From Gemmatimonas phototrophica (GTDB lineage Bacteria > Gemmatimonadota > Gemmatimonadetes > Gemmatimonadales > Gemmatimonadaceae), in NCBI RefSeq assembly GCF_000695095.2, contig NZ_CP011454.1, positions 3,410,001 to 3,474,000 of the forward strand: a DNA stretch of 64,000 bases. The letters run 5' to 3'. Position numbers and translations under genes: made by a program. The notes beneath the pieces are model-generated. The model saw only the letters and a program-made list of their open reading frames with translations. It had not been told where the DNA came from and did not search any database. Within the stretch, counting starts at the first letter, position 1. Every line of letters begins with the position of its first letter. This document shows positions 20,092-38,705 of the stretch, piece by piece.

Positions 20092-22404
20092 ATGCGTGTG
20101 ACGACCGTCGGCGTGGTGGGCGCCGGCGCCATGGGGAGCGGCATTGCCGCGCTCGCGGCGTCGGCGGGCTGCCGCGTCGTGCTCCTCGACATCCCCGGCG
20201 ACGCGGACCCCGCCTCGCCCAATCGCAGTGCCCCCGCAAAGAACGGGCTTGCCAAGGCCATCAAGAGCAAGCCGGCGTCCTTCATGGAAGCCGCCGCGGT
20301 GGCGCGCGTGCGCGTGGGGAACACCGACGACCATGTGTCCTGGCTCGCCGAGTGCGACTGGATTTGCGAAGCCATCATTGAACTGGCGGAACCCAAGCAG
20401 CAGCTGTTCGCGCGCATCGAAGCGCTCATGAAGCCCACCGCGATTGTGTCGTCGAACACATCGGGCATTCCCATGGCTACGTTGCTCGAGGGACGCAGTG
20501 AGAAGTTCCGTCGCCGGTTTCTGGGCACGCACTTCTTCAATCCGCCGCGCTACATGCACCTGCTCGAAGTCATCCCTACCCCGGAGACCGATCCCGCGGT
20601 CATTGGTGCGATGAATGGCTTCGCCGAACGCACGCTGGGCAAGGGCATCGTGATCGCGAAGGACGTGCCCGGATTCATTGCCAACCGATTGGGCGTCTAC
20701 GGCATGGTGGCCACCATGCGCCGCATGCAGCAGCACGGTCTTACTATTGACGAAGTGGATGGTCTTACCGGCTCACTCATTGGGCGCGCCCGTTCAGCGA
20801 CCTTTCGCACCGGCGACCTGTCGGGGCTGGACGTCCTCGCGCACGTCACCAAGGGAATAGGGGCCGCCACCGGCGAGGATTTTGCGCTGCCTACCTGGGT
20901 GCACGAGGCGCTGGTGGGCACCGGCAAGCTCGGTGACAAAACCGGTGGCGGTTTTTACAGCAAGACCAAAACCGGCACCCTCACCTTCGACTGGAAGACC
21001 ACGAGCTACGTTCCGCAGCAGCGGCTTGAAGGTGGAGACATTAGGCAAGCCATTCGGTTGCCCATTGCCCAGCGACTCCCCGTCATCAAGACGCTGCCGG
21101 GGGCGCAGGGCGCCTTTGTGCGTGATCATGTCGTGGATGCCGCGCACTACACGCTCACGTTGGCGTCGCAGCTCGCCCACGACATTGTCGCCATCGATCG
21201 CGCCATGGAGTGGGGTTACGGCTGGGAAGCAGGGCCGTTTCAGGTCATGGATGCCCTCGGCATTGACTGGCTGCGGGAGCAGTTCAAGGCGGAAGGGCTG
21301 GATGTTCCGCCGCTGTTGGAGCTGGCACAGGGATCGTTCTACAAGAATGGCGAATACCTCACCTTCGATGGTCAGTACGAACCCCTCCCCGCCATCCCGG
21401 GACGCATCTCGCTGGCCGGATTGGCGCAGAGCGGACGCGTGCTCGAAGACAACGGCCTCTCGCGCCTCATCGACCTTGGTGACGGCGTGGCCTGTTTCGA
21501 GTTCCGCTCCAAGATGAACAGTCTTGGACAGGGCGTGTTGGAAGGACTCGAAAAGTCGCTGCGCAAGGTGGAGAAGCTGGGCTTCAACGGCCTGGTCATC
21601 GGCAACGAAGACCCGCGCGCTTTCAGTGTGGGCGCCGACCTGTCGCTGGTGTCGTTTGCCGTCTCGGCCGGCGCGTGGGATGACATTGAAGCCTCCATCC
21701 GCACGTTCCAGGATGCCGTGATGTCCATTCGTCGCGCACCGTTCCCGGTGGTGGTGGCGCCGGCGGGCATGACGCTTGGCGGCGGCTGCGAGTTCACGCT
21801 GCACGCCGATGCCGTGCAGGCGCACGCGGAAACGTACATGGGGCTCGTGGAAGTGGGCGTGGGCCTGCTCCCCGGTGGCGGCGGCACGAAAGAACTGCTC
21901 ATGCGCTTCACCAGCGAATTGCAGAACTACGAAGAGGTGGATCTCTTCGCCGCCGTAAAGCGCGCCTTCAAGCTCATCGCGTTTGCCACTACCACCACGT
22001 CGGCTTTCGAAGGCCGCGCCTTTGGCTTCCTGCGTGATCGCGATCGCATTTCCATGAATCGTGATCATCAGCTCAGCGATGCCAAGCAGCGCGTGCTTGA
22101 TCTGGCGCCGGGCTATCTGCCGCCCATCGAGCGTACGGTGCGGGCGCTGGGCCGTGAAGGGATTGGCAATCTCGAATACGCCCTCTGGGCGGCCAAGGAA
22201 GGCGGACAGGCCAGTGCGCATGATGTCCGGGTCGGCCGCGCCGTCGCCTATGTGCTCTGCGGTGGTGATGGATCACCGCGCGATGTCACCGAGCAGGACC
22301 TCCTCGACCTCGAACGCGAACAGTTCCTGTCGCTCCTTGGCACCAAGGAAACGCAGGAGCGCATCGCGTATACCCTCAAGACCGGCAAGCCGCTGCGCAA
22401 CTGA
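20092..22404 (+). CDS. fadN: 3-hydroxyacyl-CoA dehydrogenase / enoyl-CoA hydratase (FadN-type)
   Basis: The 770-residue beta-oxidation enzyme has dehydrogenase first and hydratase last, the reverse of FadB. N-terminal NAD-binding motif GVVGAGAMGSGIA (8-20), a THFFNPPRYMHLLEVIP block with the catalytic His, and KDVPGFIANRLG precede the C-terminal crotonase domain (from about 465). That domain has oxyanion-forming FSVGADLSL and GMTLGGGCE and the acid GLVEVGVGLLPGGGG. It hydrates trans-2-enoyl-CoA and oxidises the 3-hydroxyacyl-CoA in the cytoplasm. GGAGAG lies about 5 bases before the ATG. The thiolase gene follows after 22 bases. Confidence 0.93.
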   Translation: MRVTTVGVVGAGAMGSGIAALAASAGCRVVLLDIPGDADPASPNRSAPAKNGLAKAIKSKPASFMEAAAVARVRVGNTDDHVSWLAECDWICEAIIELAEPKQQLFARIEALMKPTAIVSSNTSGIPMATLLEGRSEKFRRRFLGTHFFNPPRYMHLLEVIPTPETDPAVIGAMNGFAERTLGKGIVIAKDVPGFIANRLGVYGMVATMRRMQQHGLTIDEVDGLTGSLIGRARSATFRTGDLSGLDVLAHVTKGIGAATGEDFALPTWVHEALVGTGKLGDKTGGGFYSKTKTGTLTFDWKTTSYVPQQRLEGGDIRQAIRLPIAQRLPVIKTLPGAQGAFVRDHVVDAAHYTLTLASQLAHDIVAIDRAMEWGYGWEAGPFQVMDALGIDWLREQFKAEGLDVPPLLELAQGSFYKNGEYLTFDGQYEPLPAIPGRISLAGLAQSGRVLEDNGLSRLIDLGDGVACFEFRSKMNSLGQGVLEGLEKSLRKVEKLGFNGLVIGNEDPRAFSVGADLSLVSFAVSAGAWDDIEASIRTFQDAVMSIRRAPFPVVVAPAGMTLGGGCEFTLHADAVQAHAETYMGLVEVGVGLLPGGGGTKELLMRFTSELQNYEEVDLFAAVKRAFKLIAFATTTTSAFEGRAFGFLRDRDRISMNRDHQLSDAKQRVLDLAPGYLPPIERTVRALGREGIGNLEYALWAAKEGGQASAHDVRVGRAVAYVLCGGDGSPRDVTEQDLLDLEREQFLSLLGTKETQERIAYTLKTGKPLRN

Positions 22405-22426
22405 GCGCGCGACAGGAGATAACGAG

Positions 22427-23593
22427 ATGACCGAGGTCGTGATTGTCAGTTGTGCGCGCAGCGCCGTGGCCCGCGGAAAGGCCGATGGGGCGCTGGCGAA
22501 CGTGCATCCGGTGGATCTGTCGTCCACCGTCATGAAGGCTGCCATCGAACGGGCCGGGGTGGATCCCGTGCTGATTGAGGATGTGCAGTGGGGGTGCGCC
22601 ATGCCGGAAGCATCCCAGGGGCTTAACCACGCGCGTTTGGCGTGGCTACGCGGCGGATTGCCGGTGGAAACGGCAGCGGCTACCGTGAACCGGTTCTGTT
22701 CATCAGGGTTGCAGTCGGTGGCGTATGCCGCGCAGGCCATCATGGCTGGACAGGGCGACGCCATCATGGCCGGTGGCATCGAGATGATGTCGCAGGTGCC
22801 CATGAGCGGCTACAACGCGCGGCTGGCACCGGAAATCACCGAGAGCTACATCGGCATGGGCTTCACCGCCGAGCGCGTGGCCAAACGGTGGGAGATCACT
22901 CGCGAACAGCAGGATGCGTTTGCGCTGGCCAGTCAGCAGAAGGCCGCCGCCGCCGTGGCGAGCGGCGTCTTTGCGCCGGAGATCGTCCCCATCCATACGC
23001 AGCGCTACCACTGGAAGGGCGCCAGCAAGACGGTCACCGACATGGTGTTCGATACGGACGAATGCCCACGTGCCACAACGGCCGAGGCTCTGGCCAAATT
23101 GCGCCCCGCGTTCATGCCTACGGGTTCGGTAACGGCGGGCAACGCGAGTCCCTACTCCGATGGTGCCGCCGCCGTGCTGGTGATGCGCGCCGACACGGCC
23201 AAGTCCCTCGGCCTCACGCCGCTCGCCCGGTTCGTGAGCTTCGCGGTAGGCGGCGTGGAGCCGGACATCATGGGTGTGGGCCCCATCAAGGCGGTGCCCA
23301 AGGCACTCAAGCGCGCTGGCCTGTCGCTTTCCGATCTCAAGCTGATCGAGTTCAACGAAGCGTTCGCCGCGCAGGCGCTCGCCGTGATCAAGGAGCTCGA
23401 CATGCCCACGGACATCATCAACGTGAACGGTGGCGCCATTGCCCTTGGCCACCCGCTCGGCGCCACCGGCGCCAAGCTCACGACCCAGTTGGTGCACGAA
23501 CTCCGCCGCCGTGGTGGTGGCTACGGCATGGTCACCATGTGCATTGGCGGAGGCATGGGCGCGGCGGGAGTCTTTGAAGTGTACCCGCAGTAG
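22427..23593 (+). CDS. fadA: Acetyl-CoA acyltransferase (3-ketoacyl-CoA thiolase)
   Basis: A 388-residue thiolase with all catalytic groups: nucleophile Cys91 in NRFCSSGLQS, EFNEAFAAQA, NGGAIALGHPLGATG with the active His, and MCIGGGMGAA with the second Cys. It carries out the last step of beta-oxidation, giving acetyl-CoA. The AGGAGA 8 bases before the ATG at 22427 fixes the start and rejects a longer frame that overlaps fadN by about 340 bases. Co-transcribed with fadN. Confidence 0.95.
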   Translation: MTEVVIVSCARSAVARGKADGALANVHPVDLSSTVMKAAIERAGVDPVLIEDVQWGCAMPEASQGLNHARLAWLRGGLPVETAAATVNRFCSSGLQSVAYAAQAIMAGQGDAIMAGGIEMMSQVPMSGYNARLAPEITESYIGMGFTAERVAKRWEITREQQDAFALASQQKAAAAVASGVFAPEIVPIHTQRYHWKGASKTVTDMVFDTDECPRATTAEALAKLRPAFMPTGSVTAGNASPYSDGAAAVLVMRADTAKSLGLTPLARFVSFAVGGVEPDIMGVGPIKAVPKALKRAGLSLSDLKLIEFNEAFAAQALAVIKELDMPTDIINVNGGAIALGHPLGATGAKLTTQLVHELRRRGGGYGMVTMCIGGGMGAAGVFEVYPQ

Positions 23594-23611
23594 GGGATAA
23601 CAGCAGTAACA

Positions 23612-23707
23612 GCGTTATGGGTTATGGGTTATCGGGTTACCGCGTTAACGCGGCAACCGCAGTTCCCGCAGTTACTCGGTAACCCGATAACCCATAACCC
23701 ATAACGC
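23612..23707. repeat. 31-bp perfect inverted repeat with telomere-like heptamers between convergent genes
   Basis: Left arm 23612-23642 and right arm 23677-23707 are exact reverse complements. Each arm is built from repeats of the heptamer GGGTTAT (TTATGGGTTATGGGTTATCGG). The 34-base spacer contains further GTTAACGC and GCAGTTCCCGCAGTTAC sequences. It fills the gap between thiolase (+) and phosphotransferase (-), so the transcript from either side ends in a very long hairpin. It likely works as a two-way terminator, but the repeated, word-like build is not that of a normal terminator. Confidence 0.9.
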
Positions 23708-23709
23708 AG

Positions 23710-24810
23710 TTACGCTGTTAAAACCGCCCTTTCCGCTCTCTCTCCGAGCGCCGCGACTACGTTGCCCAGCGACGCAAACCGCGGGTCTGCGGTGAGGCCT
23801 TGGCGGTAGCGCGCATAAATCTGCTGGGCAATGACCGCGACCTTGAACAATCCGAAGGCCAGGTAGAAGGGCGCATCACTGATGTCACGCCCACTCGCCG
23901 CTCCGTACGCGGCCACCAGTTCGGCCCGCGTGTACGCTCCGGGCAAGGCGGTGACTCCCAGCCCCAGCGAACGAAAGATCGGCGCGTCATCGGCTTCCAC
24001 CCAATACGCCAGTGAGGTGCCCAGATCCATGAGCGGGTCGCCCACCGTGGCCATTTCCCAGTCGAGAATGGCCAGCACCTGCGACAGGTCGGGGGACAGG
24101 ATCAGGTTATCCAGTTTGAAATCGTTGTGCACCAGACTCACGCCGCGCTCTGGCGGGCGATTGGCCTCCAGCCATGTGGCCACCCGGCTTATCGACGGCA
24201 CATCGTCCGTGCGTGATGCCTGCCATCGCTTGGTCCACCCCTGCACCTGACGCTGCACATAACCCTCAGGGCGTCCCAGGGTTGCCAGTGGGCCATCATC
24301 TACGGGCACCGCATGCAACTGCGTCAGGGTGTGCACGAAAGTGCGGGACAACGCCCGCAGGCGCCCCGACACTGTTTCGCCGTCCTGAGGCAGTGACGGC
24401 GGCGCCGCTCCGCGCAGAATCACGCCGCGCACATGCTCCATGAGATAGAACGGCGCGCCAATTACCGACGGCTCGTCGCATTTCACGAGAGGGCGCGGGA
24501 CGGGTACTCCCAGCGGATGCAACGCAGCAAGAATTCCGTACTCACGGGCCACATCATGCGCGATACCACCGCTCACGCCGCGGGGCGGTCGGCGCAGCAC
24601 CAACCCGCTGTCCCCATGTTCATGGTGCAGGGTGACCAGATACGTCAGATTCGAGAACCCGGCCGGGAACTGCCGCACGTCCATCGTACTGCCGGCCGGC
24701 ACCAACATTGGCATGGCCGTGGCCAACCAGCCCCGTAGCGCTTCCACCGGCACGTCCTCGCCGGAACGCACCGCTGTGGTGTCAGCAGCGGCGCCTGCAA
24801 CATCACCCAT
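23710..24810 (-). CDS. APH-type phosphotransferase (ACAD10/11 kinase-like, LvaA-like)
   Basis: A 366-residue aminoglycoside-phosphotransferase-fold kinase. The N-lobe has FSNLTYLVTL and VLRRPPRG; the catalytic loop is VHNDFKLDNLI with the base Asp, and the metal-binding motif is ILDWEMATVGDPLMDLG. In the ACAD10/11 family and in Pseudomonas LvaA, this kinase phosphorylates the 4-hydroxyl of a hydroxyacyl-CoA. The gene follows the acyl-CoA dehydrogenase gene after only 6 bases, the same pairing, so a hydroxyacyl-CoA substrate is more likely than an antibiotic. Confidence 0.85.
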   Translation of the reverse strand: MGDVAGAAADTTAVRSGEDVPVEALRGWLATAMPMLVPAGSTMDVRQFPAGFSNLTYLVTLHHEHGDSGLVLRRPPRGVSGGIAHDVAREYGILAALHPLGVPVPRPLVKCDEPSVIGAPFYLMEHVRGVILRGAAPPSLPQDGETVSGRLRALSRTFVHTLTQLHAVPVDDGPLATLGRPEGYVQRQVQGWTKRWQASRTDDVPSISRVATWLEANRPPERGVSLVHNDFKLDNLILSPDLSQVLAILDWEMATVGDPLMDLGTSLAYWVEADDAPIFRSLGLGVTALPGAYTRAELVAAYGAASGRDISDAPFYLAFGLFKVAVIAQQIYARYRQGLTADPRFASLGNVVAALGERAERAVLTA

Positions 24811-24816
24811 ACAGGC

Positions 24817-26058
24817 TCAGTGCTCCCTGGGAATCCGGGGGGCCACCTCGAGATACGGCCGTAGGGCCCGACGGGCAATGACGGTCTTGTGCACTTCGTC
24901 CGCCCCGTCGTAAATGCGGGCGGCGCGTTCGTGACGGTACCACCACGCCAGCGGTGTGTCGTCCGTCATGCCCAGCGCGCCGTGTACCTGAATGGCGCGA
25001 TCCAGCACCCGTTGCAGCGTATTGGCGACGAACACCTTGATATAGGAAATTTCCTCCCGCGCCGACTCCTGCCCCTCACGCGCCATACGGGTTGCGGCAT
25101 CCAGGACCATCAATCGCGATGCGTGAATCTCCAGACGGGATTCGGCAATCCAGAACTGCACCTGCTGTTTGGTGGCCAGGGTTTCACCCGGGGCCACTTC
25201 GCGGGTAGTGGCGTAGCGGCACATGAGATCGAACGCCCGTTCACAAATGCCAATCCACCGCATGCAATGGTGAATGCGCCCCGGCCCCAGACGCTCCTGC
25301 GCCAGCGCAAAGCCGTGCCCTTGCAGTCCCAGCAGATTGCCCGTCGGCACACGCACGTCATCAAAGCGCACTTCAGCGTGACTGGCCCAGCCGCCGCCGG
25401 CCTCACCCATCACGGAGATGTTTCGCACGAGCTTGTACCCCGGCGTTTGCAGCGGCACGATGATCTGACTGGCCCGGTAGTGGCGCCGAGTCTCATCGGC
25501 GTCGGTGACCGCCATGACGACGGCAAACGCGGCACCATCGGCACTGCTCGTAAACCACTTGTGCCCGTTGATGACCCACGCCCCCGACTCATGGACTGCC
25601 GTGGTGGATAGCTGCACCGGGTTGGACCCCGCATGTTCCGGCTCCGTCATGGCGAAGCAGCTGCGAATCTCGCCGCGCGCCAACGGCTCAAGGTATTCCT
25701 GCTTCTGCGCGTCCGACCCAAAGGCCAGTAGCAGTTCCATGTTCCCCACGTCCGGCGCTTGGCAGTTGCACACGTAGTGCCCAAAAGGCGACCAGCCAAG
25801 CACTTCGCTGAGCCGGGCAAAGGCATCCAGCGGCATGTCGAGCCCACCGTACTGTGCGGGGAGAAACGGGGCCCACAACCCCAGCGCCTTGGCGCGGACG
25901 CGCAAGGCATTGAGCGTAGGCTCAGCCACATGCCAAGGCGCACCAAGCAGGGTGGCCTCAAGCGGTACGATTTCTTCGCGCACAAAGCGCCGTGCGGTGG
26001 CGAGCAGCGCATCGTGATCGACCGGCGTCATATCCGACGGGTACGCCGTAACGATCAC
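24817..26058 (-). CDS. Acyl-CoA dehydrogenase (ACAD10/11-type)
   Basis: A 413-residue flavoprotein with the family hallmarks: FAMTEPEHAGSNP and WVINGHKWFTS in the FAD/substrate region, TKQQVQFWIAES, and the C-terminal HGALGMTDDTPLAWWYRHERAARIYDG. The GTG at 26058 is chosen because GGAGG lies about 9 bases upstream and the start overlaps the TGA of the SDR gene (GTGA). ATG 26031 has no such site. With the phosphotransferase gene it probably converts phosphorylated 4-hydroxyacyl-CoA or similar substrates. Confidence 0.9.
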   Translation of the reverse strand: MIVTAYPSDMTPVDHDALLATARRFVREEIVPLEATLLGAPWHVAEPTLNALRVRAKALGLWAPFLPAQYGGLDMPLDAFARLSEVLGWSPFGHYVCNCQAPDVGNMELLLAFGSDAQKQEYLEPLARGEIRSCFAMTEPEHAGSNPVQLSTTAVHESGAWVINGHKWFTSSADGAAFAVVMAVTDADETRRHYRASQIIVPLQTPGYKLVRNISVMGEAGGGWASHAEVRFDDVRVPTGNLLGLQGHGFALAQERLGPGRIHHCMRWIGICERAFDLMCRYATTREVAPGETLATKQQVQFWIAESRLEIHASRLMVLDAATRMAREGQESAREEISYIKVFVANTLQRVLDRAIQVHGALGMTDDTPLAWWYRHERAARIYDGADEVHKTVIARRALRPYLEVAPRIPREH

Positions 26059-32622: not shown

Positions 32623-32651
32623 GCGTCCTACGGCAAACCCAAAACACAAGA

Positions 32652-32699
32652 CCCGAACGCCTGACCCGAAACTGATCCGTTCCGGGTTATGCGTTCGGG
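32652..32699. repeat. Palindromic element between convergent genes (type A, copy 1)
   Basis: Nested arms: CCCGAACGC (32652-32660) pairs with GCGTTCGGG (32691-32699), and inside it ACCCGAAAC pairs with GTTCCGGGT with one mismatch. The centre ACTGATCCGTTCCGGGTT is almost the same as the core of the element at 37287-37312. It lies between the coiled-coil gene (+) and ECF sigma gene (-), where it can end transcripts from both sides. Confidence 0.7.
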
Positions 32700-32735
32700 C
32701 CTTGAGTATTGAGTCTCGCGGGCCGACGGTACTAC

Positions 32736-34159: not shown

Positions 34160-34172
34160 TATGGAAGGTATA

Positions 34173-34192
34173 TTAGGACCAAGTGGTCCTAA
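34173..34192. promoter_or_regulatory. TetR operator 1 (autoregulatory)
   Basis: Perfect palindrome TTAGGACC-(4)-GGTCCTAA directly upstream of the TetR start, where binding would block its transcription. The same TAGGACC-N4-GGTCCTA core occurs at 34296-34319, which strongly suggests one regulator uses both. Confidence 0.88.
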
Positions 34193-34530
34193 GCGCAAGT
34201 GCGAATTAAATGGATTTGTAACTTCTTATTTAACAACGCTTTATAAGCTATCGAGACATCTCGATGAACTTTTAAGAGTCGCGTTTATCCCATCAGACTA
34301 GGACCATTTGGTCCTAGTCAAGACACACCACCCTCGACCACTATTCAGGTACGTTCCTCGACAGCATCGTTATCGAGGCTCGTCCCGCCTAAAGGGAATC
34401 GCCGGGATTCGTGCCATTGCAGGTTCCCGGGCGCGCCACCACTTCGCTCGCAGCAGGCGGAGACGTCAAGCAGTCCTCCTCGCCCCCAAGGAAGCGGGAG
34501 CCCGTTAACAGGCGTGAAGCGGGGCGCGGT
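34193..34530. other. Gene-free, partly AT-rich region between TetR and the helicase 3' end
   Basis: No convincing ORF is found. The segment 34200-34295 is markedly AT-rich and holds a palindrome ATCGAGACATCTCGAT (34250-34265), the second TetR operator, and then ordinary high-GC sequence from about 34320. The gene normally found divergent from a TetR regulator is missing: nothing coding faces away from TetR before the opposite-strand helicase 3' end at 34531. Confidence 0.5.
34296..34319. promoter_or_regulatory. TetR operator 2
   Basis: Perfect 10-bp arms (GACTAGGACC and its complement) flank ATTT. It shares the core TAGGACC-N4-GGTCCTA with operator 1, with centres 125 bp apart. The two could bind dimers that loop the AT-rich DNA between them, or this site could control a rightward transcript that has lost its gene. 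Confidence 0.85.
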
Positions 34531-37269: not shown

Positions 37270-37286
37270 TTGCAACCCCAACGCAA

Positions 37287-37312
37287 AACCCGGAACTGAT
37301 CAGTTCCGGGTT
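37287..37312. repeat. 26-bp perfect palindrome (type A, copy 2)
   Basis: A perfect palindrome around GGAACTGATCAGTTCC with AACCC/GGGTT ends lies 40 bases after the stop of the secreted-protein gene, read on the - strand, and is followed there by TTTT. It can end that transcript before the helicase gene. It shares 17 of 18 bases (ACTGATCnGTTCCGGGTT) with the element at 32652-32699. The right flank continues with GAGTTATGGG, like the 23.6-kb element. Confidence 0.8.
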
Positions 37313-37351
37313 CTGGGTTTGAGTCATGAGTTATGGGTGCGGCTTACATAA

Positions 37352-38341
37352 CTACCGCTGAATCAACTTGACCCGCTGTCCGCCCTTGAACACCTCGATG
37401 CGATCGGCACGACCGTCGCGATTCACATCCGTCCACACCTGCAACAGTTCGCTGTTGGTGTCGAGGAAGATGGCGCGCCAGGGAATACCGCCTCGTCCCT
37501 GGTCGGGAATTCGCACAATGAATTCGTTTGTCCCGAGCCACTGCATGATTTCGTTGCTGGGCCGTCCTTGCACGACATCCAGCGCACTCCGCATGGCCGG
37601 AAGTACCTGCGGGTAGGCGCGCGACGCGAACTCCGGCAAGTCGTCGCACCGTCCGTCCTTGTCGCGATCGGTGCACACGGGCGGCCCGTAGCGCAGATCA
37701 TCGCACCATCCATCGCCATCGCGATCCAGACAGGTGGCACTGCCGAAGCCCGGCGGTGGCGCGTTGGGTGCGAAATAGCGCGGATCGTTGACTCCCCCAG
37801 GCACCACCACACCACCCGGCGTCACGTACCCGCCATATGACCCTGCAGGCCCCTGCGGTGACGGTTGGGGGCCAGGATACAACGAAGCCGGCGAATTGCT
37901 CGCCGGCCGGTCGCCGTACAACTGCTCATCGGAAATTTTCTTGGCCTCCCACGCGTCACGGGCCCGGGGATCGGCCTGTGAGAGATCCGGCGGGACCAGT
38001 GGCGGGCCCTTCTTGTCGGTACCGCGCAGACTCTTGATGGGGAGATCGTCGATCTTCTTGCCCTTCGACTTGTCTTCTCCGTACACCACCCGGCCATTGG
38101 ACGGCTTGTTGCGCACCGCCGAGGCACAGTCGGTCGGGGCGGGCTGCTGCTGCGCCGGCACGCCGTCCACCCACACTCGGCACATCCCTGCCGGGGGAAG
38201 ATATTCGCGCGGGACGCCACCCTTGGCGTCCTTGTCCTTGTCTTTCGACTGTGCCCATGCGCGATCCGCCGTCACTGAGAGACTCAGGACGACAGCCGCC
38301 GCAATCAGGCGCCAGGTAGTAGTTCGGTGGGGCATCATCAC
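37352..38341 (-). CDS. Secreted protein with DxDxDG calcium-binding-type repeats
   Basis: The roughly 329-residue protein has a signal peptide (ending TADRAWAQ), a Lys/Asp-rich segment, a Pro/Gly-rich linker (about 145-190), and three acidic loops of thrombospondin type-3/EF-hand kind: CLDRDGDGWCDDL, CTDRDKDGRCDDL, and TDVNRDGRADRI. The first two are bracketed by cysteines. The loops should bind calcium. The C-terminal end folds around AIFLDTNSELLQVWTDV. The start is GTG 38341 or one of two ATGs directly after it. Function unknown; extracellular or periplasmic. Confidence 0.7.
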   Translation of the reverse strand: MMMPHRTTTWRLIAAAVVLSLSVTADRAWAQSKDKDKDAKGGVPREYLPPAGMCRVWVDGVPAQQQPAPTDCASAVRNKPSNGRVVYGEDKSKGKKIDDLPIKSLRGTDKKGPPLVPPDLSQADPRARDAWEAKKISDEQLYGDRPASNSPASLYPGPQPSPQGPAGSYGGYVTPGGVVVPGGVNDPRYFAPNAPPPGFGSATCLDRDGDGWCDDLRYGPPVCTDRDKDGRCDDLPEFASRAYPQVLPAMRSALDVVQGRPSNEIMQWLGTNEFIVRIPDQGRGGIPWRAIFLDTNSELLQVWTDVNRDGRADRIEVFKGGQRVKLIQR

Positions 38342-38521
38342 GCACGTCCTCCAGCAGAGCCCTCGTGAACGCTCACCATTGAGCGATCAGTGGATCTCGT
38401 GCCGGCTACAGGGGCAGAGGGTGTGCCATCCCCAGCCAGAGTGGCTGAGTCCTCGTAAGTATCGGCAGATTGGTACCCTACGGACAGGGGGAGGGTCCGA
38501 TCGGTCACGGGGGTGTCCAGC

Positions 38522-38547
38522 AGAGGGGACACTTGGGTGTCCCCTCT
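38522..38547. terminator. Perfect 11-bp hairpin with TTGG loop
   Basis: The arms AGAGGGGACAC and GTGTCCCCTCT are perfect. No T-tract follows on either strand. It is downstream of pfkA and upstream of the secreted-protein gene, close to the long inverted repeat, and may act together with it at the pfkA 3' end. Confidence 0.5.
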
Positions 38548-38554
38548 ATGCCAA

Positions 38555-38682
38555 ACTGACCTCTGAAAACTCCCACTGAAAACTCAATACTCCCACTGAG
38601 AACTGAAAACTCGCCACGGGCCAGGAGTCCTCAGTTTTCAGTCGGAGTTTTCAGTTCGCAGTGGGAGTTGTCAGGTTTCAGT
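38555..38682. repeat. Degenerate inverted repeat of ACTGAAAACTC words, 3' of pfkA
   Basis: Segment 38589-38612 and the reverse complement of 38645-38668 match at 23 of 24 positions. Around them the words ACTGAAAACTC, CCCACTGA and TCAGTTTTCAGT recur on both sides (for example 38575-38585 and 38602-38612), so the whole region folds back on itself in several registers. It lies 24 bases after the pfkA stop. The AT-leaning words stand out against the GC-rich genome. Confidence 0.8.
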
Positions 38683-38705
38683 TGCTCCGCGTTCGCGGCG
38701 ACCCC

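Follow-up and report, generated by a model that had tools for sequence, protein, structure and literature searches.

The window analysed here, a stretch of 64,000 nt (positions 3,410,001-3,474,000) from the single-contig 4,716,552-bp (4.72-Mb) genome of Gemmatimonas phototrophica, contains a thiolase gene and a gene for an APH-family phosphotransferase (an APH-type kinase), both with Pfam matches, that converge upon a gap made up almost entirely of one palindrome, the residual DNA being 8 nt. The features of this junction are as follows, in window coordinates.

22427-23593, + strand: thiolase gene, ending 4 nt short of the palindrome (gene call; Pfam Thiolase_N/C)
23598-23720, no strand: whole palindrome, a full copy of the GTTATGG family (inverted-repeat, fold and family searches)
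23606-23657, + strand: left arm of 52 nt, containing the heptamers GTTATGG GTTATGG GTTATCG (inverted-repeat search)
23662-23713, - strand: right arm, 52 nt, holding the kinase stop codon at 23710-23712 (inverted-repeat search)
23710-24771, - strand: APH-family phosphotransferase gene, its last codons within the palindrome (gene call; Pfam APH)

The inverted repeat between convergent genes that the first-pass annotation had picked out is real, and, as claimed, its 31-bp core arms match as reverse complements without a single mismatch (23612-23642 and 23677-23707). The inverted-repeat search extended these to the 52-nt arms, 88% complementary around a loop of 4 nt, and an outer TAACAGC/GCTGTTA pair lengthens the imperfect palindrome to its full span. 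The stop codon of the kinase is itself supplied by the palindrome, appearing as TTA on the + strand inside the right arm. As RNA, the palindrome was predicted to fold with -89.3 kcal/mol, compared with -36.3 +/- 3.9 kcal/mol for dinucleotide shuffles (z -13.6; 0 of 200), and a 26-nt string of the heptamer words occurs twice in the window and in none of 100 shuffles. No U-tailed terminator-like site was found at the locus, which bears out the annotated contrast with ordinary terminators, and Rfam 15 returned no match above gathering score over positions 22000-26000. A likeness to telomeric repeats, also proposed at first, gained no further backing.

The GTTATGG family and its class in the genome

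The GTTATGG family was located at about 33 places in its own genome (74 BLAST hits, both strands), while its core gave 40 matches within three mismatches or fewer and none in the reversed control. The two outcomes named in the first-pass annotation as fatal to its proposal, a single occurrence and an assembly artefact, do not hold. The copies are modular, being found as single half units, head-to-head pairs and triplets; about 22 are full palindromes and about 11 places hold single half units. The half unit measures about 46-60 nt, and a GTAG/CGTC tag of the REP type was not seen as conserved. Full copies at 1300776, 3641546, 3719302 and 1804936 carry an extra left unit, and a few (2713721, 3763265) share an extra block between both arms. 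Most single half units form part of a longer element of another kind, which shares GTGAGGGGCAC...GATATCCATCGCACCTCGC; seven such places are within 896-932 kb. Also observed, at about 13 places, was a MITE-like element whose terminal inverted repeats are 58 nt long (TGCGATGGATATCGA...; L197:9963-10305 and L198:5201-5650), and single GTTATGG half units lie inside a derivative of it.

With genes called by our own codon-usage script, so that single gene boundaries are approximate, the full copies were assigned to 12 convergent, five tandem and five divergent gaps, the last assignment having stood on rechecking. The share of convergent gaps (12 of 22) far exceeds that in an unbiased sample of gaps (27 of 201; binomial p=6e-6), and the earlier suggestion of a dispersed family lying between convergent genes is thereby upheld. 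Almost no other DNA remains in the convergent gaps that hold full copies, and all five tandem copies abut the upstream stop codon. Only two family copies lie between 1.81 and 3.43 Mb, a region overlapping that in which sampled genes are strongly co-oriented (1.9-2.5 Mb); this fits the ter region of high strand bias described for Gemmatimonadota (PMC11237797), in which convergent junctions are few. Tomasch et al. 2024 counted 86 repeats outside and four inside this region in G. phototrophica, and reported short repeats of 90 and 150 bp in a related genus (PMC11237797). Some of their repeats are probably elements of the present kind; palindromes, convergent genes and terminators are not mentioned in the text of that paper.

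A census of long inverted repeats, defined as having arms of at least 25 nt by a cut chosen after the data had been seen, was taken over 20-kb stretches at set positions in this genome and its relatives. Across four Gemmatimonas genomes, such repeats occupied 20 of 84 convergent gaps as opposed to 16 of 579 others (p=1.9e-10); the excess was not significant in G036 alone, and the samples from two more distant genomes of the same order were too small to judge the class. Inverted repeats scoring at least 14 were present in 59% of the convergent gaps of the own genome, compared with 15% of its tandem gaps, none of its divergent ones (0%) and none of the shuffles. All 14 long inverted repeats in tandem gaps lay closer to the upstream 3' end than to the downstream start. 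The long inverted repeats seldom carry a U-tract and are built from many word sets, among them GTTATGG, AACTGAA, AACCCGA, GCAGAGG and CACGGAG. Within the DNA sampled from each genome, 17 of 19 recurred at other places in the own genome, 8 of 9 in G032 and 2 of 5 in G031. A period of 7 in the arms is clear in G032 (lag 7, z 6.1); the own genome (z 3.0) and G031 (z 2.6) show it to a moderate degree, and a universal heptad period was rejected, being absent in the small G036 set.

Other palindromic sequences were noticed in the window. Another family with a AACCCGGAACTGATCAGTTCCGGGTT centre and words of the ACCC type has two members, at about 32623-32735 and 37270-37351, and occurs about 11 more times in the DNA sampled from this genome. 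A palindrome of AACTGAAAACTC words with 59-nt arms, at about 38339-38705, lies in a tandem gap, close to the 3' end of the upstream gene, and recurs at about five other places. Finally, a perfect 18-mer palindrome, TAGGACCA(A/T)(G/T)TGGTCCTA, is present in two copies about 107 nt apart (about 34160-34530), in an AT-rich stretch and with an operator-like look.

Orthologous junctions in related genomes

A search of 30 relatives, of which 18 belong to the genus, found the GTTATGG family in none, and an exact scan of GTDB contigs with a degenerate pattern, from which records very near the own genome were possibly left out, gave no match. The relatives do not fall into the plain presence-or-absence pattern envisaged at the outset, since many of them hold a different palindrome at the locus. 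Three convergent junctions (thiolase/APH, GlgA and TldE), each picked for holding a family copy in the own genome, were compared within the genus. Long palindromes (arms of at least 25 nt) were present in 29 of 47 convergent pairs, a count that includes the own genome and in which species share ancestry and are not independent. By junction, these were 10 of 16 at thiolase/APH, 5 of 11 at GlgA and 14 of 20 at TldE, and clustering resolved them into six, four and eight unrelated sequence sets, respectively. Where the gene after GlgA is co-directional, a palindrome was found in none of 10 genomes, these gaps also being short. The closest junctions differ in sequence, in a set that includes no near-identical genome. 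Recurrence of position and shape, and not of sequence, suggests that shape and position may matter more than the letters.

The own thiolase/APH palindrome clusters, at some distance, with an ACCCATT family; this family occurs dispersed in 9 of 30 genus genomes and gave no match in the own genome. In one relative (G007, L182) the same junction holds a perfect palindrome with 37-bp arms of CACAGAGG-type words, which we take to resemble repeats seen between genes in several other phyla.

Several junctions look like stages of birth, growth and rearrangement, in an inferred order. In the closest relatives (89-90% identical in GlgA), the gap at GlgA is 16 nt or consists of three to four tandem 14-mers that include the stop codon. 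At the thiolase/APH junction, a short hairpin seen in one relative recurs in two others with another palindrome nested in its loop. At TldE (L330, L331, L332), closely related sister species carry the core between the long arms in opposite orientations, as expected from recombination between the arms. Recombination, one of the roles first proposed, occurs here as a by-product, with no sign that it is the function.

A proposed two-way 3'-end hairpin and its rivals

The best explanation, in which our belief and doubt are evenly matched, is that the palindrome belongs to a species-specific REP/BIME-like family at gene 3' ends that prefers convergent gaps and acts as a two-way 3'-end hairpin. The family itself, its modular copies, the bias towards 3' ends and the use of the same convergent junctions by other palindromes in relatives are observed; the function is inferred. 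Transcribed from either side, the element would fold immediately behind each stop codon into a hairpin of high stability, so that a single stretch of DNA would define and protect the 3' ends of both convergent mRNAs and would limit antisense readthrough into the opposing gene. The palindrome shares with intrinsic terminators its position just after stop codons and differs in having no U-tract, so that it would not act as a classical terminator of this kind; it may instead block 3' exonucleases and/or slow the polymerase for factor-dependent release. Position, recurrence with unrelated sequence and the occupation of nearly the whole gap count for this role, which the placement of all 14 tandem-gap repeats nearer the upstream 3' end also fits. 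The contrast with the co-directional GlgA gaps, the apparent in-situ stages in close relatives and the absence of Y1_Tnp are further points in its favour. The missing U-tract, the five of 22 copies in divergent gaps, the lack of covariation and arms no more alike within than between copies count against it. Compensatory evolution was rejected as a general rule, double changes having been seen in only 2 of 24 pairs; together with A-C mismatches about as common as G-U in the arms, this gives no sign of selection on RNA pairing. Arm-to-arm gene conversion was likewise rejected as a general rule (mean own-arm score 32.3, compared with 33.6 between copies), the own-arm match beating all other copies in only 1 of 22.

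Close behind stands the main rival, a sizeable possibility though one we rate below even, namely that these are mobile palindromes of a selfish or neutral sort, resembling MITEs or else REPs moved by some other mobiliser, which insert at any place, survive only where they are harmless, between gene 3' ends, and have no host function. In its favour, whole units are scattered through the genome with the kind of differences expected among descendants of a copied element, half units are carried within another dispersed element, and a second family (ACCCATT) is itself dispersed in 9 of 30 genus genomes; the divergent copies and the absent covariation favour this reading as well. It accounts less readily for elements that replace nearly the whole gap rather than sit in it, and for unrelated palindromes recurring at the same junctions; that no Y1-type transposase was found, and that neither target duplications nor sharp element ends were noticed by eye, also counts against it. 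Mobilisation by a RAYT was rejected, as Y1_Tnp (PF01797) is absent from the genome while positive controls were detected; no matching autonomous element was found in this search, which covered Y1_Tnp only. A loss of SbcCD might explain why long palindromes are tolerated; SbcD-like matches, most of them scoring under the curated cut-off, were present in 29 of the 30 genomes.

Among known repeats, the family resembles REP/BIME elements and REPINs, short extragenic palindromic units dispersed in one genome, singly, in inverted pairs or in mosaics, and often at 3' ends, and the single and inverted-pair arrangement of such units was found here. It departs from them in arms of about 50 nt made of heptamers instead of 20-40 nt hairpin units with a GTAG- or CGTC-type tag, in about 33 copies rather than hundreds (more than 100 per genome), in the absence of a RAYT and in the unrelated palindromes that other Gemmatimonas species place at the same junctions. 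MITEs are likewise small, dispersed and non-coding with long inverted arms, but the present elements have fuzzy ends. Tandem heptanucleotides in intergenic DNA are also a feature of the cyanobacterial short tandemly repeated heptanucleotides (STRR), which are not known to be long palindromes, unlike the elements described here.

For the origin of the proposed 3'-end hairpins, short words beside a stop codon may multiply in tandem, palindromes may form or be inserted nested in existing hairpin loops, and these may be copied to other junctions by a mechanism without a genomic Y1 (RAYT) transposase; words would turn over between species because only shape and position are kept. A stronger version, which we hold to be less likely than not, is that Gemmatimonas genomes retain a hairpin at many convergent junctions while its sequence is free to change. 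Palindromes would be continually born beside stop codons by duplication of short, often 7-nt words, nest, spread without a RAYT and replace each other, since what the cell requires at these places would be a barrier to transcripts from both sides, whatever its sequence.

It is unlikely that the palindrome serves as a nucleoid or gyrase binding site, as in E. coli BIMEs, where convergent transcription piles up positive supercoils, or as a supercoil-absorbing cruciform; the convergent position and near-perfect symmetry would suit either, and the unrelated sequences at the same junctions of relatives argue against a sequence-specific protein, an argument that does not bear on a cruciform. Least credible of all is a word of the DNA-uptake type that serves also as a terminator when paired in inverted orientation, as known from Neisseria and Pasteurellaceae, where a repeated word likewise forms gene-end hairpins usable in both directions (PMC1852404): this was rejected, since uptake words generally occur at least 1,000 times (PMC1852404), whereas GGGTTAT numbered 20 against 15.4 expected in a genome sample, with no enrichment outside the palindromes and no U-tract.

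The literature searched held no description of such palindromes in Gemmatimonas, nor of a class of them between convergent genes. The usual view of dispersed palindromes in bacteria is that REP/RAYT mobility produces them; in the present case, species of a single genus have long palindromes of unrelated sequence at orthologous convergent junctions. If confirmed, this would separate position and shape, which are kept, from sequence, which is free. It would also supply naturally varied junctions at which to ask if long hairpins without a U-tract end or protect convergent transcripts, and, in the 16-nt gap, the tandem stop-codon words and the nested palindromes, a candidate series for the birth of repeats.
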